This document shows, in pieces, positions 4,499 through 46,006 of a DNA stretch of 64,000 nucleotides; position 1 is the stretch's first letter, and each line of letters opens with the position of its first letter. Made by a program: the position numbers and the translations under genes. Origin of the DNA: Chitinophagaceae bacterium (GTDB lineage: Bacteria; Bacteroidota; Bacteroidia; Chitinophagales; Chitinophagaceae); assembly GCA_004173235.1 (NCBI GenBank), contig SEAC01000025.1, forward strand, positions 124,001 to 188,000, in the 5' to 3' direction. Below the pieces are notes generated by a model, which was not told the DNA's origin, ran no database searches, and saw only the letters and a list, made by a program, of their open reading frames with translations.

Positions 4499-4533
4499 AC
4501 TTCAGAACTTCAGACATCAGACATCCGACATCA
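4499..4533. repeat. Period-7 word repeat, CATCAGA family
   Basis: Five consecutive 7-mers (acttcag, aacttca, gacatca, gacatcc, gacatca) fill the gap between the Ku stop codon and the ligD start. The 17-mer at 4516-4532 is identical to 33648-33664, 29 kb away, so this belongs to a dispersed family. It ends 11 bases before the Ku stop codon. Confidence 0.75.
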
Positions 4534-4544
4534 GCCGCTCTCTT

Positions 4545-5324
4545 CTACGCTCGCTTCTTCCCTTTTCCCTCCAGGCTTTGTTTCAGCACGTCCATCAGGT
4601 CTTTCACCGTGGCGCTGCGTTCTTCGGGTTCGGCAATGCGGATGTTCTTTCCAGCCGCTTTCGCCTTGATCACTTTCTTCAGCGAGGCTATGTAGTTGTC
4701 TTTGAACGCCGCGGGATCGAAGGATTCGGTAAGCTGGGCGATCAGCTTTTTTGCAAGCTGCAGTTCCTTCTCGACAACCCGGCCGCTGGCGAGCTTCGGA
4801 ACTTCTTTCAGCTCTTCTTCGTACCGCATCTGATCCAGAAGGAGGAGGCCCTTATAAGGCTTGATGGCGCATACGTGCTCGCGGTTGCGCAACATGAACT
4901 CCGCGATGCCCACCACACCAGAGTCTTCGAGCGCCTTCACCAGCAGGCGATAGGTTTTTTCGCCGCCCTTGCCGGGCACCAGGTAATAAGGCTTTTCAAA
5001 ATAAATGGGATCGATCTCTTCTGCTTTTACAAACTGTGCGATGTCGATCGACTTCGATTTTTGCGGGCTGGCCCTGGCGAAGTCTTCTTCTTCAACCACA
5101 ACGAACTTGCCTTTTGCATATTCGTAACCCTTCACAATGTCTTTCCATTCCACTTCCTTTCCCGTCTTCGTATCAATGCGCGCATACTTGATGGGCGCCA
5201 TGTCTTTTTTCGCCAGCATATGCAGCGGCAACTCCTCCGATTGAACGGCGCTTTGGAGCTTCACGGGAATGTTGACCAGCCCGAAGGAGATCGTGCCAGA
5301 CCAGATGGACCGGGCGGTTGCCAT
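4545..5324 (-). CDS. ku: Ku DNA end-binding protein
   Basis: The 259-residue protein starts MATARSIWSGTISFGLVNIP, the hallmark N-terminus of bacterial Ku. Ku forms a homodimeric ring on broken DNA ends and recruits LigD. The full Ku core is present (LYxx-type segments, the RYEEELKEVP region and the Lys-rich C-terminus), with no truncation. The order PPOX-like gene, ku, ligD on one strand, with 12 and 122 bases between genes, indicates a single NHEJ operon. The ku-ligD gap holds a period-7 repeat. Confidence 0.96.
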   Translation of the reverse strand: MATARSIWSGTISFGLVNIPVKLQSAVQSEELPLHMLAKKDMAPIKYARIDTKTGKEVEWKDIVKGYEYAKGKFVVVEEEDFARASPQKSKSIDIAQFVKAEEIDPIYFEKPYYLVPGKGGEKTYRLLVKALEDSGVVGIAEFMLRNREHVCAIKPYKGLLLLDQMRYEEELKEVPKLASGRVVEKELQLAKKLIAQLTESFDPAAFKDNYIASLKKVIKAKAAGKNIRIAEPEERSATVKDLMDVLKQSLEGKGKKRA

Positions 5325-5336
5325 AAGCGCAGCTTT

Positions 5337-5840
5337 TTAGGACGCAGGGAAGAATGTATTCGATCCAACGTTGCCGGTGGGGCGGAAAAGAGCGGTTACG
5401 TAGTTGAGCGCATGCTGCCACCACGAGTGACGCGCGGGCGCCGTTTCGTAGAATTCAGCCTTTTGCATTTTTACCTTCACCAGTGCCATTTCCTGAAACA
5501 CCTGCGGGTTGATGTCCTCGTTCACTTCGAGGAAGGCGTACATCTCTTCTGGATCGGTTACCATCCAGCCTTTGCCGGACACTTGCAGGAAGCAATCGAC
5601 GCCCTTGCGGAAGAAGTCGAGGCGAACAGGAAAGTCCTGTTCGAATTGCCGGATGTCCTGGTTGGGTTTCTTTACAAAAAACCATACGTAACCATAATCG
5701 TCCGTTTTGATGCTGGAAACTACAGAGGTGGGCAGTTTGAGTACGGCATCGCTCTGATTGAAAAAGATGGCACTACCAATAAGGCGGATCTTTTCCTGGA
5801 GGAAGGCCAGCTGTTGGGGAGCGTGTTGATTGAGGGGCAT
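5337..5840 (-). CDS. Pyridoxamine 5'-phosphate oxidase-like (split-barrel) protein
   Basis: This 167-residue protein resembles the general-stress PPOX/FMN-binding split-barrel family. Typical features are a short beta-rich barrel with the YGYVWFFVKKP strand, an IRQFEQDFPV segment and a WMVTDPEEMYAF strand. No membrane segment is present. Its stop codon is 12 bases upstream of the ku start on the same strand, so it is probably the first gene of the ku-ligD operon. Members bind flavin or haem-type cofactors, but a role in end joining is not established. The association is inferred from position only. Confidence 0.7.
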   Translation of the reverse strand: MPLNQHAPQQLAFLQEKIRLIGSAIFFNQSDAVLKLPTSVVSSIKTDDYGYVWFFVKKPNQDIRQFEQDFPVRLDFFRKGVDCFLQVSGKGWMVTDPEEMYAFLEVNEDINPQVFQEMALVKVKMQKAEFYETAPARHSWWQHALNYVTALFRPTGNVGSNTFFPAS

Positions 5841-6026
5841 ACACTGAGTTTTGTTAACGGAATCGAAAAGAACTCAGGGATTGAGCTCCAAATAGAGTAC
5901 CAACAAAATTTCCGCTTTGACCGGCACGCCCGAGCCTGATCGATGGGGAAATCGCGCTACAACACGGCTGTAACCGTCTTTCGGCTGGTCTGATTTTTTC
6001 ATCTGTACGAACTTCAAATCCTAATT

Positions 6027-6683
6027 ATGGCAAAAGCAACGAAATCCTCCACAAGCCGCAAGAGCGCTCCCGCCAAATCCGCAACACGCTCCGGCGCAAC
6101 CAGCCGCAGTTCGTCGTCTACACCAACCAAGAGCAAAAGCAGCAACGCCACCAAGAGCAGCAAAGGAGCACCCAGCTTCGACGAGGCAACCCTCCTCCAC
6201 GAGCTGTTCATGGAAGAACTGAAAGACATCTATTGGGCAGAGAAGCACCTCACCAAAGCGCTGCCTAAGATGGCCAAGGCGGCCACTTCGGAAGACCTCC
6301 GCAGCGCATTCCAAACGCACCTCGCGCAAACCGAGGAGCAGATCAGCCGCGTAGAGCAGGTGTTTGAAACCCTTGGCCTGCCTGCACGTGCGAAGAAGTG
6401 CGAAGCCATGGAAGGCCTGGTGAAAGAGGCGCAGGAAGGCATTGAAGACACGCCCAAAGGATCTTCGGTGCGCGATGCGGCACTGATCATCTGCGCGCAG
6501 AAAGTAGAGCACTACGAGATCGCAGCTTATGGATCGCTGGTGCAACTGGCCAAGACGATGGGCCGCACCGAAGTAGCGAACATCCTCGCTGAAACACTCG
6601 AAGAAGAAAAGGAGACCGACCAGCTGCTCACCGAGCTTGCCGTGTCGGGCATCAACATCTCTGCCGAGCAGGAGTCTGAATAA
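6027..6683 (+). CDS. DUF892/YciF-type ferritin-like protein with basic tail
   Basis: A 218-residue protein with two parts. Residues 1-50 are low complexity (Lys, Ser, Thr, Ala) and resemble a histone tail. Residues 55-215 match the DUF892 (YciE/YciF) ferritin-like four-helix fold, with the LFMEELKDIYWAEKHLTKALP start, the HLAQTEEQISRVEQVF helix and the KVEHYEIAAYG helix that carry the di-iron Glu/His ligands. The family is induced by general stress and probably binds metal. It is transcribed away from the NHEJ operon and is followed by a strong terminator at 6702. Confidence 0.88.
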   Translation: MAKATKSSTSRKSAPAKSATRSGATSRSSSSTPTKSKSSNATKSSKGAPSFDEATLLHELFMEELKDIYWAEKHLTKALPKMAKAATSEDLRSAFQTHLAQTEEQISRVEQVFETLGLPARAKKCEAMEGLVKEAQEGIEDTPKGSSVRDAALIICAQKVEHYEIAAYGSLVQLAKTMGRTEVANILAETLEEEKETDQLLTELAVSGINISAEQESE

Positions 6684-6701
6684 GTATCCGGTCGTCGAAG
6701 G

Positions 6702-6736: not shown

Positions 6737-6825
6737 TGCCCGTGCAGTCCCCAACGTGCGACGGTGCAGTTATGCACACCCAGTTTGGCCCGTCTTTTCG
6801 TTTATTGGGGAGGTAATACTTGTAT

Positions 6826-7395: not shown

Positions 7396-8449
7396 GGAGT
7401 TCCTCAAGCTCGATCGCGACTACAGCAAGGCCGCGCACGCCGCCGACCTCGTATACGTGAGCGACCAGTGGCCGGGAATCAAACGATCAAAGAAAGGCAC
7501 CGGCTTCAGCTATACGTTGAAAGAGGCTGCGCTGACCGACAAGGCGCAACTCGAACGCATCCGCAAACTCGCCATTCCGCCGGCGTGGACGGAAGTATGG
7601 ATCTGCGTGCACGAGAACGGACACATCCAGGCAACGGGCAAGGATGTGAAAGGCCGCAAGCAATACCGCTATCATCCGCTCTGGCACGAGCTGCGCAACG
7701 AAACGAAATTTCACCGCCTCTTTGAATTCGGCAAACTACTCCCCTCGCTGCGCCTGCAACTGGAAGAAGATCTTTCGGTAAGAGAGCTGACCGACCGCAA
7801 GGTGATCGCAACCGTGATCGCACTGATGGAACGAACGTATATCCGGATCGGCAACAGCGACTATGAAAAGCAAAACGGATCGTATGGCCTTACGACGCTT
7901 AAAGACCGGCACGTGAAAGTGCAGGGCGACCAGGTACGTTTTTCATTCACCGGTAAGAAAGGTATCGGTCACGATATCTCGCTGCGCAACCGCCGGCTGG
8001 CCAAAGCTGTGCAGGCCTGTCGCGACATCCCGGGCAAAGAGCTGTTTCAATACTATGATGGCGACGGCAAGCGCAAGCCGATCGACTCGGGCATGGTGAA
8101 TCAGTACCTGAAAGAAGCCACGGGCGGCGACTTCAGTGCAAAAGATTTCCGCACCTGGGCAGGCACGCTCAACGTGTTGCGCGCCTTCAAAGCATTCGGC
8201 CCGGCCAATAGCGAAGCAGAGCGTCGGCGCAACACGCTGGCCGCCCTCGACGAAGTGAGCCACAAGTTGGGCAACACGCGCACCGTGTGCCGCAAGTATT
8301 ATGTGCACCCGGGTATCATCCGGCTGTACGAAGAACAGTCATTGCAGCGCTACCTCAAAGAGCTCGATGCCATCGAAGAGCCGGACAACCTTACGGGACT
8401 TACGAGCGAGGAAAGGGTATTGATGAAGATCCTGAAGGAATTGGTGTAG
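7316..8449 (+). CDS. DNA topoisomerase IB (poxvirus-like)
   Basis: A 377-residue type IB topoisomerase, which relaxes supercoils through a 3'-phosphotyrosyl intermediate. Visible landmarks are the YIRIGNSDYEKQNGSYGL motif (conserved Arg-x-Gly-Asn), the TTLKDRHVK strand with the catalytic Lys, the KDFRTWAGT motif with the second Arg, and CRKYYVHPGII near residue 330 holding the nucleophilic Tyr. The first 25 residues are Ser/Arg-rich and not conserved. The ATG at 7316 lies inside the upstream permease gene (80-base overlap). No later ATG exists before the core, so this start is likely unless GTG or TTG is used. Confidence 0.93.
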   Translation: MSSAARKGSNESSSRKPLEAVSSLSHKEFLKLDRDYSKAAHAADLVYVSDQWPGIKRSKKGTGFSYTLKEAALTDKAQLERIRKLAIPPAWTEVWICVHENGHIQATGKDVKGRKQYRYHPLWHELRNETKFHRLFEFGKLLPSLRLQLEEDLSVRELTDRKVIATVIALMERTYIRIGNSDYEKQNGSYGLTTLKDRHVKVQGDQVRFSFTGKKGIGHDISLRNRRLAKAVQACRDIPGKELFQYYDGDGKRKPIDSGMVNQYLKEATGGDFSAKDFRTWAGTLNVLRAFKAFGPANSEAERRRNTLAALDEVSHKLGNTRTVCRKYYVHPGIIRLYEEQSLQRYLKELDAIEEPDNLTGLTSEERVLMKILKELV

Positions 8450-8453
8450 AAGG

Positions 8454-8502
8454 GAGAGGTGAAATGTGAGATGTGAAATGTGAAATGTTAGATGTGAGAT
8501 GG
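8454..8502. repeat. Period-7 word repeat, GAAATGT family
   Basis: Seven consecutive 7-mers: gagaggt, gaaatgt, gagatgt, gaaatgt, gaaatgt, tagatgt, gagatgg. The array begins five bases after the topoisomerase stop codon and precedes a terminator hairpin. Confidence 0.8.
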
Positions 8503-18014: not shown

Positions 18015-18035
18015 GTGAATCGTGAATCGTCAAGC
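18015..18035. repeat. Period-7 word repeat, GTGAATC family
   Basis: Three consecutive 7-mers (gtgaatc, gtgaatc, gtcaagc) begin five bases after the DUF1328 stop. The 14-mer gaatcgtgaatcgt is shared with the array at 21703. Confidence 0.65.
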
Positions 18036-18060
18036 TTGCATTGGCGATGCGCAGATAAAA

Positions 18061-18087
18061 AAGGGAACGCAGTGCGTTCCTTTTTTT
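18061..18087 (+). terminator. Intrinsic terminator after DUF1328 gene
   Basis: GGAACGC pairs with GCGTTCC around an AGT loop, with A residues before and seven T residues after the stem. Confidence 0.85.
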
Positions 18088-18090
18088 ATT

Positions 18091-18198
18091 CGTGAGCCGT
18101 CACCCGTGAGCCGTGAGCGCTGACGCCTATAATAAAAGAACGGATGACTAAGCCATCCGTTCTTTGTTTCTTTATGCGTTGCGAGCTCACGGCTCACA
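18091..18198. repeat. Inverted period-7 repeats flanking a hairpin, GTGAGCC family
   Basis: The left arm has four 7-mers of the form cgtgagc/cgtcacc plus gctgacg (18091-18125). The right arm (18185-18198) reads gctcacg gctcaca, the inverse. Between them lies a separate 12-bp terminator stem. The right arm ends three bases before the stop of the minus-strand 80-residue gene. Confidence 0.7.
18135..18165. terminator. Bidirectional terminator stem
   Basis: AAAGAACGGATG pairs perfectly with CATCCGTTCTTT around a 7-base loop, with T-rich sequence on both outgoing sides. It separates the convergent DUF1328 and 80-residue genes. Confidence 0.75.
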
Positions 18199-20130: not shown

Positions 20131-20174
20131 TCACGCAAAGGCGCAAAGACGCAACGCCGCAAAGACTGCGTTAT

Positions 20175-20213: not shown

Positions 20214-20217
20214 AAAT

Positions 20218-20304
20218 TTCCAATTTTCAACAAACAATGCTCAATTTTCATCGAGGGTTTTCCCTTGAACATTGAAAATGGAGCATTGATTATTGACCAT
20301 TACT
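20218..20304. repeat. Inverted period-7 word repeats, TTTCAAT/CATTGAA family
   Basis: The left arm has five 7-mers (ttccaat, tttcaac, aaacaat, gctcaat, tttcatc). The right arm has five inverse 7-mers (cattgaa, aatggag, cattgat, tattgac, cattact). The arms pair imperfectly around a short spacer. The right arm ends two bases from the citrate synthase stop codon. Confidence 0.75.
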
Positions 20305-21702: not shown

Positions 21703-21866
21703 GAATCGTGAATCGTGAGCCGTCAGCCGTGAGGCGTGAAAGAGTGATGCACGGCAATGCGCATCCGATCGGGAACAATGCGATCCCATCCATCGGAACG
21801 TTTCGAACGTCGGCTGGCCCTGCTTCCGTATGCCGATCATGGCTCACGGCTGACGGCTCACGTCAC
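21703..21866. repeat. Inverted period-7 word repeats, GTGAATC/GTGAGCC family
   Basis: The left arm reads gaatcgt, gaatcgt, gagccgt, cagccgt, gaggcgt, gaaagag (21703-21744). The right arm is atggctc, acggctg, acggctc, acgtcac (21839-21866). The 20-mer at 21714-21733 is the exact reverse complement of 21843-21862, with 109 bases between. The right arm overlaps the stop codon of the LptF/G gene. Confidence 0.85.
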
Positions 21867-22951: not shown

Positions 22952-22970
22952 CGAGAGCGAAAATAGAATG

Positions 22971-23095
22971 TTTGTCGTTTGTCGTTTGTAGTTTGTCGTT
23001 GGCGTAACCGAAGGAATGCAAATTTTTAAGCTTTTGTTTCAAATTGTGCGAAACGACGGCCTCGAACTGCAAAAACCACAAACGACAAACCACAA
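22971..23095. repeat. Inverted period-7 word repeats, TTTGTCG family, between divergent genes
   Basis: The left arm reads tttgtcg, tttgtcg, tttgtag, tttgtcg, ttggcgt (22971-23005). The right arm reads accacaa, acgacaa, accacaa (23075-23095), the inverse. The spacer is about 69 bases. The element fills the gap between the divergent starts of the LptF/G and SDR genes. Confidence 0.8.
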
Positions 23096-23131
23096 ACTGC
23101 CCTCTGGCCCGTCCTTTGCCGCCCCATCGGG

Positions 23132-23875: not shown

Positions 23876-25075
23876 ATGATCGGCTCAAAATTCATGTTCG
23901 CTACCGGTATCGAAAACTCCTACCCCACCATCCGCCTCGCGGACGGCACGATGAAGCGCATCGACGAGATGGAGAAGTGCCGCCACTACCAGAACATGGC
24001 GCTCGACTTCCAGCTCACGAAAGACATCTGCATCGACTTCCTGCGCTGGGGCCCGCCCTACTACCAGGTGCACACCGCGCCGGGTAAGTACGATTGGTCG
24101 TATACGGATGAAGCCATTGCACAAATGCGCGCGCTCAACATCACGCCTATCGTAGACCTGTTGCACTTTGGCGTTCCCGATTGGCTGGGCAATTTTCAGA
24201 ACCCCGAGTTCCCGAAGTTCTTTGCCGAGTATGCCTGCGCGTTTGCGAAGCGCTTTCCCGACCTCGACCTGTATACACCGATCAACGAGATCTTTATCAC
24301 TGCCATGTTCTCTGCGCAGTATGGATGGTGGAATGAATGCCTTACTTCGGACGTTTCGTTTGTGCGTGCACTGAAGCACCTCTGCCAGGCCAATGTGATG
24401 GCCATGCGCGAAATACTCAAAGTGCAACCCAACGCTACGTTCATTCAAAGCGAATCATCGGAATACTTCCATCCCGTGCGGCCCGAAGTGCAAGGCCTCG
24501 CGAACTTCCTCAACCAGAAGCGCTTCCTCGCGCTTGACCTCACCTACGGTTATCCCATCCGCGTAAATATGTTCGAATACCTGATGGAGAATGGTATGAC
24601 GCGCGAAGAGATTCGTTGGTTTGAGCAAAACCAGGTAAAGGCGCGTTGCGTGATGGGTAACGACTACTATGCCACCAACGAGCACATGGTGATGCCCAAT
24701 GGCACCTGGCAGGCGGCGGGCGACATCTTTGGCTACTACGTGATCACGCACCAGTACTACGCGCGCTACCGGCTTCCCATCATGCACACCGAAACCAACC
24801 GTGCCCACGACGGCGAAGACTGGCTGTGGCGGCAGTGGGCCAACCTGCACCGGCTCAAGCAGGACGGCGTTCCCATTCTTGGCTTCACCTGGTATAGCCT
24901 CACCCACCAGGTAGACTGGCACGTTGCCTTGCGCGAAGAGTTGAACCATACGCACCCCGTGGGGCTTTTTGACCTCGACCGCAACATCCAGCCTGTGGGA
25001 AAGGCCTACAAGCGGCTCATCCAGCAATGGGGTCCCGTGCTCGACGACGAGCGCTTCGGTCCCGTGTATCGTTGA
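23876..25075 (+). CDS. Glycoside hydrolase family 1-like protein
   Basis: A 399-residue (beta/alpha)8 protein. The acid/base Glu is in TPINEIF near residue 142 and the nucleophile Glu is in MHTETNR near residue 304, as in clan GH-A family 1. An N-terminal CRHYQNMALDFQLTKDICID segment and the WYSLTHQVDWHVAL end also fit. It is shorter than typical GH1 enzymes (about 450 residues), and the first strand lacks the usual GAATAAYQ motif. No signal peptide is seen. It is encoded 15 bases after an SDR gene, probably in one transcript. Confidence 0.8.
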   Translation: MIGSKFMFATGIENSYPTIRLADGTMKRIDEMEKCRHYQNMALDFQLTKDICIDFLRWGPPYYQVHTAPGKYDWSYTDEAIAQMRALNITPIVDLLHFGVPDWLGNFQNPEFPKFFAEYACAFAKRFPDLDLYTPINEIFITAMFSAQYGWWNECLTSDVSFVRALKHLCQANVMAMREILKVQPNATFIQSESSEYFHPVRPEVQGLANFLNQKRFLALDLTYGYPIRVNMFEYLMENGMTREEIRWFEQNQVKARCVMGNDYYATNEHMVMPNGTWQAAGDIFGYYVITHQYYARYRLPIMHTETNRAHDGEDWLWRQWANLHRLKQDGVPILGFTWYSLTHQVDWHVALREELNHTHPVGLFDLDRNIQPVGKAYKRLIQQWGPVLDDERFGPVYR

Positions 25076-25080
25076 CGCGA

Positions 25081-25200
25081 GCATCCTTTAGGACGTCATT
25101 GCGAGCGAAGCGAAGCAATCCCACCCAACCGCAGGACGCCTTCCGGCCGTCATCGCCAGCATCCTTCAGGACGTCATTGCGAGCGAAACGAAGCAACCCC
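25081..25200. repeat. Two direct copies of a 42-base dispersed repeat
   Basis: The 42-base units at 25081-25122 and 25159-25200 are nearly identical, and each contains CGTCATTGCGAGCGAAGCG followed by a CAATCC/CAACCC end. A further inverted copy is at 30096-30122 and a diverged, self-complementary relative is at 35052-35120. This word is known as a common intergenic repeat in many bacteria. Confidence 0.85.
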
Positions 25201-25228
25201 GCCCATTCCATTTTCTTAGCTTTACACT

Positions 25229-26917: not shown

Positions 26918-28057
<1,140 letters not shown>

Positions 28058-28067
28058 AACCGCAAAG

Positions 28068-28183
28068 TAATGGGGTAATGGGGTAATGTGCTGATGGGGT
28101 GATGAAAGTGCACAAAAAATGGGCTGTTTTGAACGGTATCAATTCCCATTATCCAATTACCCCATTAGCACATTACCCCATTA
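28068..28183. repeat. Inverted period-8 word repeats, TAATGGGG family, between divergent genes
   Basis: The left arm reads taatgggg, taatgggg, taatgtgc, tgatgggg, tgatgaaa (28068-28107). The right arm reads tcccatta, tccaatta, ccccatta, gcacatta, ccccatta (28144-28183). The 24 bases at 28076-28099 match the reverse complement of 28160-28183 with one mismatch. The element occupies the divergent promoter region of tgt and the glycosyltransferase. Confidence 0.85.
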
Positions 28184-28189
28184 TCTTTG
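28182..28189 (+). promoter_or_regulatory. TAnnTTTG box adjacent to start codon
   Basis: TATCTTTG matches the Bacteroidota -7 consensus and ends three bases before ATG 28193, implying a leaderless or nearly leaderless transcript, or use of the next ATG at 28199. Its first bases lie at the end of the word-repeat arm. Confidence 0.5.
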
Positions 28190-28192
28190 CCT

Positions 28193-29311
28193 ATGCTTAT
28201 GAGCTGGGGCTTATCCCTATTCGTCGCCTTTTGTGTGGTTGCGGCGATCCAACTGTATTATTACCTGTACTTCTTTCGCCGCGTGGGCGCCTGGAAGCCG
28301 CGGCAGCGCGAAGTTTCGCAACAGCACCCTGTGTCGGTGATCATCTGCGCGCGCGATGAGGACGAAAACCTGGCCCGCCACCTTCCCGGAGTGCTGCTTC
28401 AGGAATACCGGTCCACCCACGAAGTGCTGGTGGTGAACGACAACTCGGTAGACGACACGCGCTACGTGCTGGAAGAATTCCTGAAAACGTACAAAGAGCT
28501 GCACATCGTAGAACTACAACAGGAAGCAAAGCTGATTGCCGGGAAAAAATACCCGCTTTCGATGGGCATCAAAGAAGCAAAGCACGAACTGTTGCTGCTC
28601 ACCGACGCCGACTGCGTGCCTGCATCGGAACACTGGATCTTCAAAATGCAGGACGCCTTCGATGACGGCATCGAGGTCGTTTTGGGCTATGGTGCTTATA
28701 AAAAGCAAAAGGGTTTCCTGAACAAGGCGATCCGATTCGAAACCTTTCACACCGCCCTGCAGTATTTCGGGTATGCGCTTGCAGGCAAACCTTATATGGG
28801 CGTGGGCCGCAACCTGGCCTACCGCAAGGCCACCTTCTTCCGCAACAAAGGATTTTCGAGCATCAACCACATCCCTTCCGGCGACGACGACCTCTTCATC
28901 AACAAAGTGGCCAACAGTAGAAATACGGCCGTCGTGATCGACCCGGAGGCCTTCACGCTTTCGCGGCCCAAGCAAACCTGGAAGGAGTGGATGCGTCAGA
29001 AAAACCGCCACTACTCCACCGGCAAATACTACCAGCGGGGCGTCAAGTGGATGCTCGGGCTCTACACCCTGAGCTTCGTGCTCTTTTACCCGCTGTTCGT
29101 GGCTTCGCTCCTGCTTTACGATTGGCGCTGGAGCCTTATCCCGCTGGCTTTGCGCTGGATCAGCATCGGCTTCGTTTGGGGCAAGGCGATGAAAAAGCTG
29201 CAGGAGAAAGACCTCTTCGGCGCCTTCATTTTCTGGGACATCTGGCTGTTCTTCTACTACGTCATCTTTGCACCTGCGGTGTGGAAGAAGCCGAAGAAAA
29301 TGAGCTGGTAA
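28193..29311 (+). CDS. Membrane-bound family 2 glycosyltransferase
   Basis: A 372-residue GT-A glycosyltransferase. One N-terminal membrane helix (LSLFVAFCVVAAIQLYYYLYFF) is followed by the catalytic domain with VSVIICARDEDENL, VVNDNSVDDT and LLTDADCVP (nucleotide-sugar and metal-binding Asp residues), then GDDDLFINKV and RQKNRHYSTGKYY. Two or three C-terminal helices follow. It probably builds an envelope or exported polysaccharide on the cytoplasmic face of the membrane. It may be co-transcribed with rsmG, 70 bases downstream. Confidence 0.9.
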   Translation: MLMSWGLSLFVAFCVVAAIQLYYYLYFFRRVGAWKPRQREVSQQHPVSVIICARDEDENLARHLPGVLLQEYRSTHEVLVVNDNSVDDTRYVLEEFLKTYKELHIVELQQEAKLIAGKKYPLSMGIKEAKHELLLLTDADCVPASEHWIFKMQDAFDDGIEVVLGYGAYKKQKGFLNKAIRFETFHTALQYFGYALAGKPYMGVGRNLAYRKATFFRNKGFSSINHIPSGDDDLFINKVANSRNTAVVIDPEAFTLSRPKQTWKEWMRQKNRHYSTGKYYQRGVKWMLGLYTLSFVLFYPLFVASLLLYDWRWSLIPLALRWISIGFVWGKAMKKLQEKDLFGAFIFWDIWLFFYYVIFAPAVWKKPKKMSW

Positions 29312-30218: not shown

Positions 30219-31904
30219 ATGGCTGAAGTGATTCGGATGCCCCGACTGAGCGATACGATGACCGAAGGGGTGATCGCTGCCTGGCACAAAAAGGTAGGCG
30301 ACACCGTGAAGAAAGGGGATATCCTCGCTGATATTGAGACCGATAAGGCCACCATGGAGCTGGAGAGCTACAAGGACGGCACCATACTGCACCTGGGCGC
30401 CGACAAAGGCGGCAAGATCCAGGTGGACGACCTTCTGTGCATCATTGGTGCGCCGGGCGAAGACGTAACCTCGCTGGTATCGGGTTCGAGCCAAAGCGCA
30501 CCCGAGGCAAAAGCAGCCGGGCCTGCCGCTAAAACCGAAACATCCGCACCTCCGACGGCCGAAGCCCCAGCGAAACAGAATGCCTCGGTCGATATTTCAA
30601 AAATGGAAGAAGTGGTGCTGATGCCGCGACTTTCCGATACGATGACCGAAGGCGTGATTGCTTCGTGGCACAAGAAGGTGGGCGACGCAGTGAAGAAAGG
30701 CGACGTTCTTGCCGACATTGAAACCGACAAGGCAACGATGGAGCTGGAATCTTATAAGAACGGAATACTGCTGTATCAAGGCGGTCAACCCGGCGAAAAA
30801 GTGGCCGTGAACGACCTCCTCTGCATCATTGGCGAGCAGGGCAAGGTGGATGTGGATGCCATCGTTGCCGCGGCCAAAGGCGGGGCCGCACCCGCGGGCG
30901 CGGAACTGGAGAATAAAGAACAAGGAACACCAAATAACGAAGCAGCCAAAGCGGAGGCTTCGCCGGCAACTTCTTCTGCAAACAGCGACGGCCGCGTAAA
31001 AGCATCGCCGCTCGCAAAAGCGCTTGCCAAAGAAAAAGGTATCGACCTCGCACAGGTGCAGGGCTCCGGCGACGGCGGCCGCATTGTAAAGAGCGACGTC
31101 GACAACTTCCAGCCGCAGCAGGCTGCACAAGGCCAGGCTGCGTCGGGAGGCCAACCACAAACGACAAACAACAAACCGCAAACTTTCGTCGCAGGCGAAG
31201 AAGGCTTCAACGACACCAACGTATCGCAGATGCGCAGGGTGATCGCCAAACGCCTGGGCGAGTCGAAGTTTACCGCGCCGCACTTCTACCTCACCATGGA
31301 GATCAACATGGATGGGGCAATGGAAGCGCGTACGAAGATGAATGAAGTGAGCGAGGTGAAGATCTCCTTCAACGATATGGTGGTAAAAGCTGCGGCCATG
31401 GCACTGCGTAAGCATCCCGCGGTGAACAGCAGCTGGATGTCTGCCCGGCCAGGTACGGACGGGGGCGACTTCATCCGCACCTACCAGCACATTCATATCG
31501 GCGTTGCCGTGGCCATTGAAGACGGCCTCATCGTTCCGGTGATCCGCTTCGCCGACCAAAAGTCGCTGAGCCAGATCGGCGCCGAATCGAAAGAACTCGC
31601 CGGCAAGGCGCGCAACAAGAAATTACAACCGAACGAGTTTACCGGCAACACCTTCACCATCTCCAACCTCGGCATGATGGACATCGAAGAATTCACTGCC
31701 ATCATCAACCCGCCCGACTCGGCCATCATGGCCGTAGGCCGCATCAAAGAAGTGGTGGTGCGCAAAGGCGAAGGCTTCGGCGTAAGCAACGTGATGAAGG
31801 TGACCTTGAGCTGCGACCACCGCTCGGTGGATGGCGCCGTGGGCGCGGGCTTCTTGCAAACGTTCAAGAAGTTCCTCGAGAACCCGGTGACGATGCTCGT
31901 ATGA
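30219..31904 (+). CDS. Dihydrolipoamide acetyltransferase (E2) of a pyruvate dehydrogenase complex
   Basis: A 561-residue E2. Two lipoyl domains lie at about residues 2-78 and 130-206, each with the lipoylated Lys in ETDKATMELES. A Pro/Ala/Glu-rich hinge is followed by the peripheral subunit-binding domain (KASPLAKALAKEKGIDLAQV, about residue 263) and the catalytic domain ending in CDHRSVDGAVG, which carries the catalytic His. Pyruvate dehydrogenase is the best guess because of the motif set. No E1 or E3 lies next to it; a fused E1 lies about 30 kb away. Confidence 0.93.
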   Translation: MAEVIRMPRLSDTMTEGVIAAWHKKVGDTVKKGDILADIETDKATMELESYKDGTILHLGADKGGKIQVDDLLCIIGAPGEDVTSLVSGSSQSAPEAKAAGPAAKTETSAPPTAEAPAKQNASVDISKMEEVVLMPRLSDTMTEGVIASWHKKVGDAVKKGDVLADIETDKATMELESYKNGILLYQGGQPGEKVAVNDLLCIIGEQGKVDVDAIVAAAKGGAAPAGAELENKEQGTPNNEAAKAEASPATSSANSDGRVKASPLAKALAKEKGIDLAQVQGSGDGGRIVKSDVDNFQPQQAAQGQAASGGQPQTTNNKPQTFVAGEEGFNDTNVSQMRRVIAKRLGESKFTAPHFYLTMEINMDGAMEARTKMNEVSEVKISFNDMVVKAAAMALRKHPAVNSSWMSARPGTDGGDFIRTYQHIHIGVAVAIEDGLIVPVIRFADQKSLSQIGAESKELAGKARNKKLQPNEFTGNTFTISNLGMMDIEEFTAIINPPDSAIMAVGRIKEVVVRKGEGFGVSNVMKVTLSCDHRSVDGAVGAGFLQTFKKFLENPVTMLV

Positions 31905-31939
31905 GATATCTGATGTAGAATGTCTGATGACTGATATGG
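31905..31939. repeat. Period-7 word repeat, CATCAGA family (inverted orientation)
   Basis: Five consecutive 7-mers (gatatct, gatgtag, aatgtct, gatgact, gatatgg) start at the base after the E2 stop codon. The 20-mer at 31910-31929 matches the reverse complement of 33668-33687 with one mismatch, so this array and that at 33646 enclose the M1 peptidase gene. Confidence 0.8.
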
Positions 31940-33645: not shown

Positions 33646-33708
33646 AAATCAGACATCCGACATCCTCCATCAGACATCCTACATCAGACATCCTCCATCA
33701 GACATCCT
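33646..33708. repeat. Period-7 word repeat, CATCAGA family, nine units
   Basis: Nine consecutive 7-mers alternate between ccatcag/acatcag and acatcct. The array contains the stop codon (33698-33700) of the MutS-like gene, and shares a 17-mer with the array at 4499. Confidence 0.9.
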
Positions 33709-35026
33709 CCCCAAGGCTTTCGAGGAGGTCGACAACTTTTTCGCGCCGAAGGATCACATAACCTATGCGGTCGTTGGAAATACCCTCCAGCAGCTGGTAG
33801 CTGAACGAAAGCTGGTCGCTGTCCACCTTCGTTTCAAAATATTTGAAAGCAATATTGGAATGAACCCTCAACTCTTCGCCGATCTCGTATAAGTGCGTAG
33901 ACAGGATGAACAGCGAGTTGCGCATCTTCACCAGGCCTTTGATGACGGCCAGCGAACACTTCATCGCGTCCTGAACGTTCGTTCCCTTGAACAGTTCATC
34001 GATCAGCACAAGCCACTTCCGCCCATCGTTGATCTTCACGATCGTATTCTTTATCCGTTGCACCTCATTGTAGAAATACGATTCGCCTTTGACGATGTTG
34101 TCGGCCACGTTGATGTTCGAGAGCAAGCCATCGAAGATCGTAAGGGTCATTTGCCGTGCGGGCACGCCCATACCCAGGTGCGCGAGGTAAACAGAAACGC
34201 CGACGGCTTTGATCAGCGTGCTTTTACCGGCCATGTTGGCACCCGTGAGAAACACGAAATTCTGCTCGGGATTCATCAGCAACGCGTACGAAACAGGCTG
34301 GGGCAGCAGCACGTGGTACAGGCCTTCGGCACTGAACTGCGGCTGCGTACTTTCCATGAATTCGGGAAAGCGCAGGTTGAAGTGCTGCATCGCAAGCGCC
34401 ATCGAATGCCACGCTTCCAACCTGCCAAAAATGTCGATCAGCTCGAGCAGATTGCTTTTATAGCGGCCACGAAGAAAGAAGGCGAAGTACAGGTTCTCAC
34501 GGATCGTGAGCTTGTGACTTGCGGGAATCATCGACAAGATCCGCAGCGGCTCCTCCTGCAGCAGCGCGCCGATCCGCTCAAGGTAGAAGGACAGCTTCTT
34601 CGGCAGTTCGGTACCGGATAGCATTCCCTGCAACGTTTTAAGGCCGCGAAAAAAATCGGCAAAGTGCTTCACCGAATAGCGGATCATCGAATAGTCCTGG
34701 CTGTGCAACACGCGGTAGCTCAGTGCATTGATCTTGTTGAGCGTTTGAGGGATCGGATCGAGGTGGTAGTCGAGGAATTTGTCCATCACCAGCACCGTGC
34801 CATTGGTAATTTCAGACGGCCAGAGGTCGGCCTGCTGCAACAGTGCACGCAAAATGCTTTGCGTACCCAGGATCTTCGCACGATCATTCATCGGCTCGCT
34901 GAAGAAACGGCGCAGCCACTCCTTGCCCACTTCGGTTTGGGTGAAGTTGAGGCGGTGAAAAACGGAAAACTCTTCTTCCGGGTGAAAGATGGCGAGATCG
35001 GTCAGCGTTATTGTGTCTACAAGCAT
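33698..35026 (-). CDS. MutS-like ATPase lacking the mismatch-recognition domain
   Basis: A 442-residue protein with the MutS core (lever/clamp helices) and the C-terminal ABC ATPase. Walker A is TGANMAGKSTLIK near residue 275, and the Walker B region is KWLVLIDELFKGTN followed by THLYEIGEEL. The N-terminal mismatch-binding domain of true MutS is absent, which puts it in the MutS-like group of Bacteroidota with unclear function. I chose ATG 35026 (MLVDTITLTDL); the upstream frame crosses a dispersed repeat. Its stop codon lies inside the nine-unit word repeat. Confidence 0.88.
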   Translation of the reverse strand: MLVDTITLTDLAIFHPEEEFSVFHRLNFTQTEVGKEWLRRFFSEPMNDRAKILGTQSILRALLQQADLWPSEITNGTVLVMDKFLDYHLDPIPQTLNKINALSYRVLHSQDYSMIRYSVKHFADFFRGLKTLQGMLSGTELPKKLSFYLERIGALLQEEPLRILSMIPASHKLTIRENLYFAFFLRGRYKSNLLELIDIFGRLEAWHSMALAMQHFNLRFPEFMESTQPQFSAEGLYHVLLPQPVSYALLMNPEQNFVFLTGANMAGKSTLIKAVGVSVYLAHLGMGVPARQMTLTIFDGLLSNINVADNIVKGESYFYNEVQRIKNTIVKINDGRKWLVLIDELFKGTNVQDAMKCSLAVIKGLVKMRNSLFILSTHLYEIGEELRVHSNIAFKYFETKVDSDQLSFSYQLLEGISNDRIGYVILRREKVVDLLESLGEDV

Positions 35027-40408: not shown

Positions 40409-40448
40409 TGCAATGTGTGTTCTGGCTATTCTTGTGAACCGCGACCCC

Positions 40449-40469
40449 GATTCACGATTGACGATTCAC
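40449..40469. repeat. Period-7 word repeat, GATTCAC family
   Basis: Three 7-mers (gattcac, gattgac, gattcac), the inverse form of the GTGAATC family. The array ends four bases before the stop codon of the M43 protease. Confidence 0.65.
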
Positions 40470-40473
40470 GCTC

Positions 40474-42964: not shown

Positions 42965-42973
42965 CGAGAAGTA

Positions 42974-43864
42974 CTAGTTGAAGCCGTCTGTCTGCATCGT
43001 CTTGTCTATTTTGGCAACAAGCCCTTGCAACACTTTGCCGGGACCACATTCCGTGAAATGCGAAGCGCCATCGCGGATCATCGCCTGCACGCACTGCGTC
43101 CATTTCACCGCACCCGTCAATTGATCGATGAGGTTTTGCTTGATCTCGTCTTTATTGATGATGCCGCGGGCTGCTACGTTTTGATACACCGGGCAGGAAG
43201 GCGTGTTGAAATAGGTTGATTCGATTGCGGCCTTGAGCTCTTCGCGGGCAGGCGCCATCAGCGGCGAGTGAAAGGCTCCGCCTACGGGGAGCACCAGCGC
43301 GCGCTTGGCACCGGCGGCTTTCAGTTGCTCGCATGCAATCTCCACTCCCTTCAGGCTTCCGGAAATCACCAGTTGTCCGGGGCAGTTGTAGTTGGCCGGC
43401 ACCACCACCTCGCCACTATCCTTTTGCACCTGGCTACAGATCGCCTCTACCTGCTCGTCGGCCAGACCGAGCACAGCCGCCATCGTGGAAGGCGTTTTCT
43501 CACAAGCTGCCTGCATGGCTCGTGCGCGCAGGCTCACGAGGCGCAACCCGTCTTCGAAGCCAAGCGTGCCGTTGGCCACCAAAGCCGAAAACTCCCCCAG
43601 CGAATGCCCGGCGACCATATCGGGGCGGGCACTTTCGATGCCGCGAAACGCGATCACCGAGTGAAGGAAGATGGCAGGCTGCGTGATCTGTGTTTGCTTC
43701 AGGTCCTCCTCGCTACCTGTAAACATCACATCCGAAATACGGAAGCCGAGTTGTTCGTTGGCCTGTTCGAAAAGTTTCTTTGCAAATGCGCTGTTGTCGT
43801 AATGAGCTTTGCCCATGCCGGTGAATTGGGCCCCCTGGCCGGGAAAAACGAAAGCGTGTTTCAT
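42974..43864 (-). CDS. fabD: Malonyl-CoA:ACP transacylase
   Basis: A 296-residue FabD, which loads malonyl groups onto acyl carrier protein for fatty acid synthesis. Opening FVFPGQGAQFTGMG, the nucleophile Ser in GHSLGEFSA near residue 91, and the catalytic His in AFHSPLMAPAREEL near residue 200 are all present. No other fatty acid genes are adjacent. A period-8 word repeat begins 10 bases upstream of the start codon. Confidence 0.96.
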   Translation of the reverse strand: MKHAFVFPGQGAQFTGMGKAHYDNSAFAKKLFEQANEQLGFRISDVMFTGSEEDLKQTQITQPAIFLHSVIAFRGIESARPDMVAGHSLGEFSALVANGTLGFEDGLRLVSLRARAMQAACEKTPSTMAAVLGLADEQVEAICSQVQKDSGEVVVPANYNCPGQLVISGSLKGVEIACEQLKAAGAKRALVLPVGGAFHSPLMAPAREELKAAIESTYFNTPSCPVYQNVAARGIINKDEIKQNLIDQLTGAVKWTQCVQAMIRDGASHFTECGPGKVLQGLVAKIDKTMQTDGFN

Positions 43865-43873
43865 GAAGCTTGT

Positions 43874-43905
43874 TTATTGGTCTATTGGTCTATTCGTTAT
43901 TGGTA
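43874..43905. repeat. Period-8 word repeat, TTATTGGT family (left of four-helix gene)
   Basis: Four 8-mers: ttattggt, ctattggt, ctattcgt, tattggta. The array at 44450 is the inverse, so both form an inverted pair around the four-helix-bundle gene. Confidence 0.8.
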
Positions 43906-43985
43906 ATAGCGTCCGCTATTACGGTCTTGCTCAAAGGATGGAGGATACAGTGCAGTTGAGACGTCAAATGTAAGTCACTTTGCAG

Positions 43986-44357
43986 TTACTTGACCTTCCT
44001 CACCTCCTGCTTCAGCCTCTTCACATAGCTATTCAGTTTCTTATGAATCGTTCGCAAATCATTGACTAGCTCCTCCAATATCGCGTCGTCGATCAAATTA
44101 CGTTTTCGTGCCTTGAAAAGCCAGTTCTTGCTTTCCATCAACGAGCCCCGCGCGTAAAAACAAAACACGATTTGCTGTTTGAAAAAATAACGTCCATAAC
44201 CCTCCGCGATGTTAGAAGATATCGAATCGGCGGCTTCTGTAAATTGGCTTCCAATACGCCACTTGGGAAAAGGATCCCAACCATCAACGATCTTCCAGAT
44301 CTTATCGCTGTCTTCCTGCGCAAGATTGTAGATCTCCAGTTCTTCAAGAAGATACAT
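43986..44357 (-). CDS. Four-helix-bundle protein of the 23S rRNA IVP/Avd-like family
   Basis: A 123-residue helical protein (MYLLEELEIYNLAQEDSDKI). The family signature FTEAADSISSNIAEGYGR lies near residue 42, followed by FYARGSLMESKNWLFKA and a Lys-rich end. This matches the S23/four-helix-bundle family (TIGR02436). Its members are encoded inside intervening sequences of some bacterial 23S rRNAs and resemble the Avd accessory of diversity-generating retroelements. Related proteins are basic and nucleic-acid-binding. I took ATG 44357, not TTG 44375. The gene is enclosed by inverted period-8 word repeats (43874 and 44450). No rRNA or reverse transcriptase is nearby. Confidence 0.88.
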   Translation of the reverse strand: MYLLEELEIYNLAQEDSDKIWKIVDGWDPFPKWRIGSQFTEAADSISSNIAEGYGRYFFKQQIVFCFYARGSLMESKNWLFKARKRNLIDDAILEELVNDLRTIHKKLNSYVKRLKQEVRKVK

Positions 44358-44449
44358 TGTTCTTTTTGTGAACAAGCTATCTAAGGCTTGGCAGCAATCC
44401 TTGGGATTTTCCCCACTAAAAGGTGTTTTTTTCCTCGTCCTCGAACGTT

Positions 44450-44481
44450 ACCAATAAACCAATACACTGATAAACCAATAG
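44450..44481. repeat. Period-8 word repeat, ACCAATAA family (right of four-helix gene)
   Basis: Four 8-mers: accaataa, accaatac, actgataa, accaatag. It is the inverse of the array at 43874 and ends nine bases before the last codon of the broken folE. Confidence 0.8.
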
Positions 44482-44490
44482 CCCTCCCTC

Positions 44491-44987
44491 CTAGGAGAGG
44501 CTGGTTCCGATCAATTTCAGGAATTCGTTGCGGGTGACGTGGTTGTCGAGGAATTCGCCGTGGAAGGCGGAAGTGGTGGTGACGGAATTTTGCTTTTGCA
44601 CGCCGCGCATCATCATCGGCGGGCATACACGTCCACCACGCGTGCGAGCTTGCTGAGACCGGTTATGTAGCCATTGGGGATATAGGCGATGTGCGCCTTG
44701 CCGTAAAACGGATGAAGGTGGTGCTCGCACATCGAATACAGCTCGATGTCTTTCACGATCACCATCTCGCTTACGTCTTCGCGGAAGCGGGCGGAATTGA
44801 GTATGTGCACTGCATCGAGTGTGTAGCCCTGCGTGTTGTATTGCATTGCCTTCGCGGCGCGCTCCGGTGTTTTTACCAGCCCTTCGCGACCGACGTCTTC
44901 GCCGGTAAGCTCAATGATCTTTTTGTAGGCATCCATCATGCCTTCCGTTACATCCTGGTCGTAGTATTCTTTCTTGTGGTAAGCCAT
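44491..44987 (-). pseudogene. folE: Broken GTP cyclohydrolase I (internal deletion)
   Basis: The N-terminal frame (ATG 44987) encodes a normal FolE up to [14 protein letters not shown], with the zinc motif CEHHLHPF, and then hits TGA at 44613. The C-terminal part continues in another frame from [12 protein letters not shown] to FLKLIGTSLS (stop at 44491). Compared with intact FolE, about 34-35 codons are missing at the junction, including the QVQERL helix and the second zinc Cys that precedes MMMRG, and the frame is shifted by one. FolE would make dihydroneopterin triphosphate for folate and pterin synthesis. Either the gene is dead or the sequence has a local assembly error. Confidence 0.88.
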
Positions 44988-45053
44988 AACAACATCTAAT
45001 TATCTCGGATGCAGGATGCCGGATCGAAAGTATCAGACACCACACATTCGTCG

Positions 45054-45470
45054 TTAGTCAACTGGGTATTCAACGTAATTGCGCGGCGTTTCATAAAGCC
45101 GCAGCTTGAGGTCGAGTTCGCTGTCGATGTAGGGCCGAAGCAGGCGATAGATGACGATGGCGATGTTCTCGGCCGTCGGGTTCATCTCGCGAAACTCCTT
45201 TGTATCCAGGTTCAGGTTCTTATGGTCGAAGCGCTCTACCACCTGCTGCTGCACGAGGTCGGAAAGCACCTTCATATCCATCACGAATCCCGTCCGCGCG
45301 TTCACCTCGCCGGTCACCTTGATCTCCAGCTCGTAGTTGTGGCCGTGGTAGTGCGGGAGGCTGCACTTGCCGAACACCTTGGCGTTGAGCTCGTCGGTCC
45401 AGTCGCGGTTGTACAGGCGATGGGCGGCGTTGAAGTGCTCGCGGCGAAAAACGGATACTCTCTCTCCCAT
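45054..45470 (-). CDS. 6-pyruvoyltetrahydropterin synthase/QueD family, copy 1
   Basis: A 138-residue PTPS-fold protein. Zinc His residues are in FNAAHRLYN and HYHGHNYELEI; the catalytic Cys is in FGKCSLPH, the Asp-His pair in FDHKNLNLDT and the Glu in YETPRNYVEY. Motif order and spacing fit PTPS/QueD enzymes that act on dihydroneopterin triphosphate, either for pterin or queuosine precursor synthesis. It lies just upstream of the broken folE on the same strand. The second copy is 43 bases upstream. Confidence 0.9.
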   Translation of the reverse strand: MGERVSVFRREHFNAAHRLYNRDWTDELNAKVFGKCSLPHYHGHNYELEIKVTGEVNARTGFVMDMKVLSDLVQQQVVERFDHKNLNLDTKEFREMNPTAENIAIVIYRLLRPYIDSELDLKLRLYETPRNYVEYPVD

Positions 45471-45513
45471 GGGTGCTTCTTAAAACGAATAAATGTAGCA
45501 AAGGTTCGCCGCC

Positions 45514-45930
45514 TTATCGTTCCTCACCAAAATACTCAACGAAAATGCGCGGCGTTTCATACAGCTTGATGCAGTGCAACTGCACGCCTTCGGGAAGGTG
45601 CGGACGTAGCTGGTTCCAGATGCCGATGGCGAGGTTTTCGGTGGAGCAGAGCTGGTCTTGAAGAAATGCAACGTCGAGGTTGAGGTTACGATGGTCTACC
45701 AGTTCGACGACGTGCACGCGGATCAGCTCGCTGAGCTTTTTCACGTCCATCACGAAGCCCGTTTCGGTGCTGGGGCGTCCCTTTACCGTAACGTACAGCT
45801 CGTAATTGTGTCCATGCCAATTAGAATTGGCGCACTTGCCAAAAACAGCATCGTTCTGCTCCGGCGTCCAGTTGGGGTTGTACAACTTGTGCGCCGCATT
45901 AAAATGCTCCACACGCGTAAGAAATACCAT
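45514..45930 (-). CDS. 6-pyruvoyltetrahydropterin synthase/QueD family, copy 2
   Basis: A 138-residue paralogue of copy 1 with the same key positions: FNAAHKLYN, FGKCANSN, WHGHNYEL, VDHRNLNLDV and YETPRIFVEY. The STENLAIGIWNQL helix is close to that of animal-type PTPS. It is the first gene of the run copy 2, copy 1, folE remnant. A TAnnTTTG box (TATCTTTG read leftward at 45955-45948) lies 17 bases upstream of ATG 45930. Two paralogues suggest a split of labour, for example pterin versus queuosine; which is which cannot be decided. Confidence 0.9.
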   Translation of the reverse strand: MVFLTRVEHFNAAHKLYNPNWTPEQNDAVFGKCANSNWHGHNYELYVTVKGRPSTETGFVMDVKKLSELIRVHVVELVDHRNLNLDVAFLQDQLCSTENLAIGIWNQLRPHLPEGVQLHCIKLYETPRIFVEYFGEER

Positions 45931-45947
45931 CGATCCGATTATTTGCG

Positions 45948-45955
45948 CAAAGATA
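45948..45955 (-). promoter_or_regulatory. TAnnTTTG box upstream of PTPS copy 2
   Basis: Read leftward the sequence is TATCTTTG, matching the Bacteroidota -7 element, 17 bases before the start codon at 45930. Confidence 0.5.
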
Positions 45956-45966
45956 AACCGGTGGTG

Positions 45967-46006
45967 TTGGTTTATTGGTTTATTGGTTTATTGGTTTATT
46001 GGTACG
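45967..46006. repeat. Period-8 word repeat, TTGGTTTA family
   Basis: Five 8-mers: four perfect ttggttta followed by ttggtacg. It lies in the divergent gap between PTPS copy 2 and mqnB and is the inverse of the array at 44450. Confidence 0.85.

Follow-up and report, generated by a model that had tools for sequence, protein, structure and literature searches.

The 64,000-nucleotide stretch examined here, called the window (positions 124,001–188,000 of contig SEAC01000025.1 of a Chitinophagaceae bacterium; C16:124001-188000 in its 3.76-Mb, 92% complete assembly, G000), contains tandem arrays of short, near-identical words between its genes, which raises the question of what these arrays are. The original prediction had named fourteen of them, and had suggested mobile elements, an RNA feature of 3′ ends or a ladder of nucleoid-protein binding sites. 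We found that the arrays are very probably the terminal inverted repeats of very small mobile elements and of derivatives lacking an open reading frame (ORF), related to the intervening sequences (IVS) of 23S ribosomal RNA (rRNA). The suggestion of mobile elements was thereby supported, with the correction that the arrays would be the ends of elements and not the elements themselves. This reading draws on inverted pairing, bracketing of genes, linkage of words to proteins, spread over phyla, filled and empty sites, and ORF-less, truncated and nested copies, each established by sequence comparison. An element would consist of an array of about 4–5 near-identical words X, then a spacer or one ORF, then X in reverse complement. 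Class A would carry an S23/four-helix-bundle protein between words mostly of 7 or 8 bp, and class B a GxxExxY PD-(D/E)XK protein between words mostly of 8 or 9 bp, of the type C[AG]CN[AG]AG.

The word arrays are real and not a product of chance. Genes were called by our own hexamer-based method, and arrays scoring at least 12 were sought in the 276 gaps shorter than 600 bp (39.6 kb) of the window and 400 kb of contig C22. Arrays of periods 7, 8 and 10 numbered 45, 20 and 8 in the gaps, compared with a mean of 0–0.05 per period in 20 dinucleotide shuffles of the gaps and with 1, 0 and 0 arrays, respectively, in 411 kb of coding DNA. The refutation named in advance, that array counts equal those of shuffled DNA, thus failed. 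Another 26 arrays of period 14 were doublings of 7; periods 4–6 and 11–13 gave none, and periods 9 and 15 gave one each. Beyond the predicted 7 or 8 bp, arrays with a period of 10 bp are frequent and a period of 9 bp is also found. In a larger, 864-kb sample (512 gaps of 20–800 bp, score at least 10, a looser cut-off than in the shuffle comparison), 148 arrays were found in 110 gaps. The estimate of about six word families fits the window, where about seven were counted, but not the larger sample, which holds at least 11. All fourteen named arrays are visible in the sequence. Eleven passed our detector, and those at 20218, 31905 and 44450 did not; the last was picked up by Tandem Repeats Finder, and the other two were recognised by eye only. 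The 17-mer shared by 4516 and 33648 was recovered, as was the 14-mer at 21703, the other copy of which begins at 18017 and not at 18016. Further arrays were found at 20133–20166, 21837–21862, 23070–23097, 28144–28183 and, in a coding region, 31153–31183.

Many arrays are halves of inverted pairs of the form [word array X]-spacer-[X′]. When the left half of each of 356 gaps of at least 80 bp was compared with the reverse complement of the right half, 57 gaps scored at least 12, compared with 3.4 for halves of different gaps, 22 for direct repeats and 3 for mirror repeats. A full search for inverted pairs (score at least 14) returned 66 of 459 gaps and none of 459 shuffled gaps. Ordinary terminator hairpins make up part of these 66. 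Clear periodicity in one arm or both, together with a spacer below 200 bp, was seen in 37. The arms of 36 of these are 12–137 bp apart and the 37th (18106) includes a terminator hairpin, in agreement with the earlier statement that the arrays are not terminators. They are also, as stated, not clustered regularly interspaced short palindromic repeats (CRISPRs), because the words of 7–10 bp are contiguous and there are no repeats of 20–50 bp with unique spacers. The pairing had gone unnoticed for 21703/21837, 22970/23070, 28067/28144 and 43872/44450, and for 20217–20301, where it was seen by eye. Orientation was skewed towards a GT-rich left and an AC-rich right arm (88 arrays against 37 in reverse, 23 undecided ones left out; the binomial p treats paired arrays as independent).

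One element of the window, at 43872–44480, would retain its gene, and the other copies there would mostly be single arms or ORF-less derivatives resembling miniature inverted-repeat transposable elements (MITEs). Its left arm of TTGGTCTA words (43872–43907, seen by eye and by the detector) pairs at score 15.5 with a right arm of ACCAATAA words (44450–44480, Tandem Repeats Finder). Between them, on the minus strand, lies a gene at 43986–44357 for an S23/four-helix-bundle (23S rRNA intervening-sequence) protein, the putative cargo, matching PF05635 (E=4.8e-23) and TIGR02436 (E=1.4e-23; own-genome match G000:C16:168028-168345). An apparently orthologous S23 element was noted in the sister genome G010 (C8 581632-581946), the arms in each species being in its own word variant.

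The bracketing of S23 genes was not confined to the window. Ten PF05635 matches in the own genome, nine above the Pfam cut-off and one (L275) below it, were counted as nine genes, the overlapping matches L272 and L273 being taken as one. All nine are bracketed by inverted word arrays with scores of 12.5–28 (eight at 14 or more, the ninth at 12.5), whereas a score of 14 was reached by 3 of 166 control genes. Their arm words, one per gene, are AGTTTTC, GTGAATC, TTGGTCTA, GATGTCT, TAATGGGG, AATATTC, AATGGTC, TGATTACT and AAAAGTC, and most of them were also found in ORF-less arrays. Accordingly assigned, 84 of the 148 arrays belong to families with a cargo gene in the own genome, 32 to families without one (GTTTGTG, AATGAGT and the 10-mer GAAGGTTCCT) and 32 to none by strict patterns; words related to the 10-mer flank S23 genes in G010 (L295) and in a second sister genome, G012 (L293). 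A PF05635 match was present in 17 of 18 genomes of the genus, own included, from which 28 new loci were taken. S23 ORFs were placed by our own hidden Markov model (HMM; 17 seeds), which did not re-find L274 although it is bracketed at score 28, and the flanks of L292 and L335 were too short for the bracketing test. Bracketing at 14 or more was obtained for 52 of 64 testable genes, namely 7 of 8 in the own genome, 20 of 27 in the genus and 25 of 29 in genomes outside it. Both arms were periodic in 8/8, 18/27 and 24/29 of these genes, respectively, and the left arm had more G than C in 47 of 53 S23 elements (one gene counted twice). The 11 S23 loci checked against Rfam, the window gene (L268) included, gave no match and hence no 23S rRNA location, and the window itself gave no Rfam match.

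S23 genes are also present on cyanobacterial conjugative plasmids, where filled and empty sites could be compared. At site A, an S23 gene lies between two genes upstream of trbI/virB10 in Trichormus variabilis ATCC 29413 plasmid C and in a Scytonema plasmid, and four plasmids 97.5–97.9% identical are without the element. The insert measures 428 or 414 bp, duplication included, and a 5-bp GTAAT is duplicated across the stop codon in 8/8 comparisons (2 filled x 4 empty plasmids). The two filled copies (L380 and L383) differ by 14 bp, or two heptads, suggesting that arms may drift by whole-word slippage. Site A is occupied by a copy without most of the ORF and without the right arm in a Nostoc plasmid, and by an ORF-less pair in one of Brasilonema. 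Three plasmids (L381 included) are filled at site B, and another three are empty there, the gap measuring 3 bp; one filled plasmid has an ORF-less copy nested inside the S23 gene. Insertion would occur mostly at non-coding junctions, often at a stop codon, with a 5-bp duplication at the one site with clear boundaries.

The second class emerged from CGCAAAG words. A scan of named genomes with CGCAAAGNCGCAAAGNCGCAAAG gave at least 117 CGCAAAG loci, 80 of them listed by title. The matches listed come from at least 12 phyla (some phylum names were read from titles), namely Chloroflexota, Cyanobacteriota, Pseudomonadota, Desulfobacterota, Myxococcota, Planctomycetota, Verrucomicrobiota, Acidobacteriota, Nitrospirota, Latescibacterota, Spirochaetota and Bacteroidota. 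Among the 117 matches listed, an inverted partner within 600 bp was found on the downstream side of 63 and on the upstream side of 6, with two loci in both groups, and a TYTCA-like motif was common to the bases just outside the arrays. Seven of them hold a GxxExxY ORF, six at most 160 bp from the array, and two hold an S23 ORF. Five CGCAAAG loci have spacers of 347–432 bp, and four of these enclose a GxxExxY ORF (PF13366, TIGR04256) between their arms. CGCAAAG pairs with spacers of only 33–48 bp were also seen, in Sphingomonas and in planctomycete, Sorangium and Sulfuritalea bins (L150, L186, L200 and L204).

Among 26 CGCAAAG-bearing genomes, PF05635 was present in 19 and PF13366 in 23; among 14 well-known control genomes, the former was in none and the latter in three. 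From the 26 genomes, 30 loci per family were taken, which were high-scoring, spread over the genomes and fewer than half of all matches. With GxxExxY ORFs placed by our own HMM of 5 seeds only, 28/30 GxxExxY genes outside the own genome were bracketed at 14 or more. In the own genome, 4/5 were bracketed. When equal 200-bp flanks were used, 44/56 S23 and 28/30 GxxExxY genes were bracketed, compared with 0/165 control windows in the same loci; a looser control, windows in CGCAAAG loci, gave 7/348. The two classes differ in their words, as C[AG]CN[AG]AG occurred at least twice in an arm in 0/52 S23 and in 24/32 GxxExxY elements. In a Sphingomonas parapaucimobilis plasmid, a GxxExxY gene with CGCGAAG arms lies in 464 bp between fabD and fabG; in a Sphingomonas genome 77–79% identical these genes are about a dozen bp apart, as judged from coordinates only. 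Searches of close relatives gave no empty plasmid site near two GxxExxY plasmid loci. A phylum search with four GTTTGNN words found 11/198 genomes, and its control was uninformative, the pattern reading the same backwards. Perfect GTTTGCT or GTTTGGG arrays were noted at or near contig ends in G214 (contigs C2 and C50) and G163 (C29 and C156), and are possibly assembly breaks inside longer arrays.

The words were found to follow the proteins. Over 55 S23 elements (1442 between-genome pairs, kinship being handled only by omitting within-genome pairs), arm similarity correlated with S23 identity with a Mantel r of 0.351, and 0/2000 permutations were as high, the highest reaching 0.12. Such a correlation is predicted by horizontal movement of word and gene as one unit. 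AGGAGTC-type words, for example, accompany S23 proteins 59–87% identical in Dolichospermum, a Pyrinomonadaceae bin, an Acidobacteriota bin and the genus member G003. The alternative that S23 and GxxExxY are passengers or regulators, the arrays being moved in trans by a transposase, or by a reverse transcriptase that S23 would assist as Avd assists that of a diversity-generating retroelement (DGR), is a serious one that we nevertheless hold to be unlikely. It would account for the excess of ORF-less over ORF-bearing copies, one of them nested inside an S23 ORF, for the two unrelated proteins that take the same place between arms, for elements that combine the same words with dissimilar S23 proteins and for the resemblance of PF05635 to Avd described in the accessible part of PMC10053308. 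However, a shared enzyme does not require that word similarity track S23 similarity, nor that the word classes largely keep their own protein. Unlike a DGR, the elements seen here would fit one short ORF only, with no reverse transcriptase between the arms.

Far less probable is that the arrays are simple-sequence repeats produced by polymerase slippage, with inverted partners formed by template switching. Copy number does vary by whole words (14 bp between L380 and L383), higher-order 14-bp units occur, and in the gap at 18015–18197 the arms, by eye, evolve together in place while the terminator between them persists. But slippage does not explain why dispersed loci, in no fewer than 12 phyla, have the same words and mostly in one orientation (63 against 6 among the matches listed), why some sites are filled and others empty, with 5 bp duplicated, or why the arrays are linked to two gene families. 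As the sole cause it is already contradicted, and it probably acts on top of insertion.

The arrays had been said to lie close to stop codons, and 57/147 array edges on the stop side were indeed within 15 bp of the stop, compared with 26.6 expected; edges at starts showed no excess (26/149, 23.3 expected). In the 864-kb sample, arrays occurred in 21/111 divergent, 65/320 co-directional and 24/81 convergent gaps, without strong bias for gap type. Between divergent starts of the window three arrays were found (22970, 28067 and 45967), where two had been counted. The sister genome G010 is syntenic with the window over 0.7–42.7 kb. Of 54 orthologous gap pairs, 11 were dropped for length; the 43 tested had arrays in both genomes in 10, in the own genome only in 4, in G010 only in 7 and in neither in 22. 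The corresponding numbers for 14 gap pairs of G012 were 4, 1, 1 and 8. Because 11 of the 43 G010 pairs have arrays in one genome only, the arrays are not fixed at orthologous gaps, contrary to the second refuting condition named in advance, in the part of it that concerns sites. Where both species have arrays, the words are the same, dialect-shifted or replaced, and the two arms usually agree within a species (by eye). The G010 gap orthologous to window 28057–28192 holds a 125-aa S23 ORF (PF05635) between TAATGCGG arms; the window has an ORF-less pair of TAATGGGG/TAATGTGC words there, at 28067–28183 (arms 28067–28104 and 28144–28183, score 23).

These data also bear on the view that the arrays are selected RNA 3′-end structures or bidirectional terminators. 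The enrichment of edges beside stop codons and the terminator-like hairpins that arms often enclose (by eye) would fit such a view, but divergent gaps carry arrays about as often as co-directional ones and less often than convergent ones, and 11 of 21 array-bearing G010 gap pairs have them in one genome only. A 3′-end RNA feature as the main role is therefore unsupported and highly improbable. Binding sites of nucleoid or global regulators, the interpretation given to similar paired sites of Geobacter metallireducens in the accessible part of PMC2700814, are scarcely credible as the explanation, because they account for neither the inverted pairing, the ORFs between arms and their linkage to words, nor the insertion polymorphism of filled and empty sites.

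Several known systems resemble the proposed elements in part. The closest are the 23S rRNA IVS of Leptospira, Coxiella and others, which share the S23 ORF, complementary terminal repeats around it and heptamer repeats. According to the available text of PMC4990558, the Coxiella IVS is a 428-nt unit with terminal inverted repeats (28-bp stem) and an S23p ORF between them, excised by RNase III, with heptameric GACAGAT repeats beside the ORF; it is called a selfish element there, and its authors refer to older proposals that IVS are mobile or arose by transposition. In contrast to IVS, which sit in rRNA helices, the elements here lie at protein-gene junctions, are many per genome, use many word families and have many ORF-less copies. 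They resemble MITEs in being short, ORF-less and intergenic with paired inverted ends and perhaps in a short target duplication, seen at one site, but their ends are degenerate tandem word arrays, and no transposon encoding a known transposase was found that could be their parent. Like repetitive extragenic palindromes (REPs) and bacterial interspersed mosaic elements they are many, small, dispersed, intergenic and often paired, but their arms are word arrays with no single conserved palindrome; a REP palindrome with a GTAG-type tetranucleotide was not noticed by eye in the sequence, and the RAYT family was not searched for.

The Geobacter sites likewise comprise arrays of heptanucleotides or octamers, placed on opposite strands and variably spaced, and the CACGGAGA type found beside GxxExxY genes is complementary to their class 2 word TCTCCGTS; the sites are read as IHF/HU sites, and the accessible part of PMC2700814 describes no mobile unit or cargo. 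The TAACTGA repeats of Beggiatoaceae, in the excerpts of PMC4679880, are intergenic heptamer direct repeats found also in Bacteroidetes and lacking in some relatives, but they lie mostly just upstream of start codons and form 169 direct sets and one indirect. The TMECO triplex motifs of E. coli (available part of PMC4666352) are short, intergenic, widespread, partly in inverted pairs and of variable surroundings; they differ in being one G-rich triplex-forming motif, and a similar sequence also occurs in the own genome (C22 416046). Inverted pairs of CCTCACCCCCTAACCCCCTCTCC-type sequence at G000 C22 416046-416603 and 611105-611375 resemble these intrastrand triplex motifs. The accessible parts of PMC4596501 and PMC8934634 mention, respectively, a MITE with a minisatellite in Porphyromonas and a GxxExxY protein. 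We found no literature linking word arrays to S23 outside rRNA or to GxxExxY, in a search that left subscription papers and preprints largely aside.

Several observations weigh against taking the arrays as ends of mobile elements. No transposition event was observed, mobility being concluded from comparison only; no known transposase is encoded, the ORFs between arms in the cases examined being S23 or GxxExxY, and no known catalytic activity of S23 was found. The eight site A comparisons probably reflect one event. At site B a duplication of about 5–6 bp was seen by eye only, and at site C, a third junction, where a different S23 gene has G-rich arms, there was no clean duplication; the duplication script gave no result at either site. 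Bracketing was incomplete, with 7/27 S23 genes of the genus and 4/29 outside it below score 14, not all S23 arms periodic and both arms periodic in 22/30 GxxExxY loci (counted from the listing) and not in the rest. At L289 the bracket consists of an inverted repeat of 126 bp, possibly an artefact of assembly. The loci were the best-scoring ones and the genomes outside the genus were selected for CGCAAAG arrays, and therefore the rates may be inflated and lower elsewhere. Few of the 117 CGCAAAG loci carry either ORF, so that ORF-less copies prevail; many gaps hold one array only, and no cargo gene was found for the GTTTGTG and AATGAGT families in the 92% complete own genome. Finally, the same words accompany dissimilar S23 proteins (23–34% identity) in L294/L323 (25%), L302/L317 (23%) and L328/L330.

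If the arrays are nevertheless the ends of mobile elements, the encoded protein may read its own words and drive or license movement. S23p of X. campestris is described in the available text of PMC4990558 as a homopentameric ring, and the nearest solved S23 relative by sequence was 2gsc (XCC0516; five chains, E 0.0036). Since S23 arms have a median of 4.4 words, one subunit per word may be guessed, and it is possible, by this analogy, that the ring reads one word per subunit. RNase III would cut the element hairpin from transcripts as in rRNA IVS, and insertions between genes would therefore be tolerable. An RNA step with a borrowed reverse transcriptase is thinkable because of the likeness of PF05635 to Avd (accessible part of PMC10053308). 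Taken together, a bacteria-wide superfamily of minimal mobile elements lacking any recognised transposase can be put forward tentatively. An S23 ring would bind a 7- or 8-nt word with each subunit, perhaps on hairpin RNA released by RNase III and with the help of a borrowed reverse transcriptase, GxxExxY nucleases would drive a parallel class, words and proteins would diversify jointly into dialects, and the rRNA IVS would be members resident in rRNA; as a whole, this extension is rather doubtful.

To our knowledge, S23/four-helix-bundle and GxxExxY genes, which are scattered over many bacterial phyla, have no established role. If the mobile-element reading is correct, these genes and the scattered 7- to 9-bp repeats, so far described case by case and interpreted as regulator sites, as triplex motifs or as simple repeats, would be the cargo and the ends of one mobile-element plan. 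It would also offer a source for the rRNA IVS, the origin of which is called unclear in the accessible part of PMC4990558. A protein that reads words would represent a novel mechanism by which an element identifies and mobilises itself.

The remaining arrays of the window, to which no strand was assigned, are as follows. ORF-less inverted pairs were found at 22970–23097 (GTTTGTC words; arms 22970–23000 and 23070–23097, score 20), where the same gap of G012 has the same word family, and at 21703–21862 (GTGAATC/GTGAGCC words; arms 21703–21739 and 21837–21862, score 21). A short-loop pair of AATTTTC/TTGAAAA words at 20217–20301 was seen by eye, its right half by Tandem Repeats Finder, and the G010 ortholog has the same word family. 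The region 18015–18197 combines a GTGAATC array (18015–18033), a GTGAGCC array (18091–18118) and an inverted GGCTCAC arm (about 18186–18197). The latter two flank an intrinsic-terminator-like hairpin, the stem of which is included in their inverted score of 14, and in the same gap of G010 the arms use GTGAATC on both sides. An 8-bp CGCAAAG array, the word type of the GxxExxY class, was detected at 20133–20166 by Tandem Repeats Finder.

Single arrays detected by both Tandem Repeats Finder and our detector comprise CATCAGA words of the GATGTCT family (4499–4534), GAAATGT/GAGATGT words (8448–8501), a 14-bp higher-order repeat of CATCAGACATCCTC that includes the stop codon at 33698 (33648–33710), CGATTCA words of the GTGAATC family (40448–40470) and a perfect array of TTGGTTTA x4.6 (45967–46003). 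A 20-mer of the last matched the own genome 12 times, at 8 places, and was present in 1/57 relatives. A weak single array of the GATGTCT family at 31905–31938 was seen by eye, and the same gap of G010 and of G012 contains words of the same family.

The array at 31153–31183 (AACCACAAACGACAAACAACAAACCGCAAAC, GTTTGTC family) lies inside a 2-oxoacid dehydrogenase E2-like coding region, in an interdomain linker, and the G010 protein lacks it there. In the divergent gaps 28040–28200 and C22 641685–641825, the arms abut TAnnTTTG-like boxes directly before the start codons, which we take to be the Bacteroidetes -7 motif; divergent-gap arrays look as if they fill all space up to the promoter core. A DNA ligase D gene (1609–4461; phosphoesterase, ligase and primase-polymerase domains) adjoins an array near a topoisomerase IB gene. 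The gap 25075–25228 is filled by CGTCATTGCGAGCGAAGCGAAGCAA copies (about 25090–25210), and similar sequence forms inverted copies around spacers in two G010 gaps, indicating another dispersed paired repeat family.

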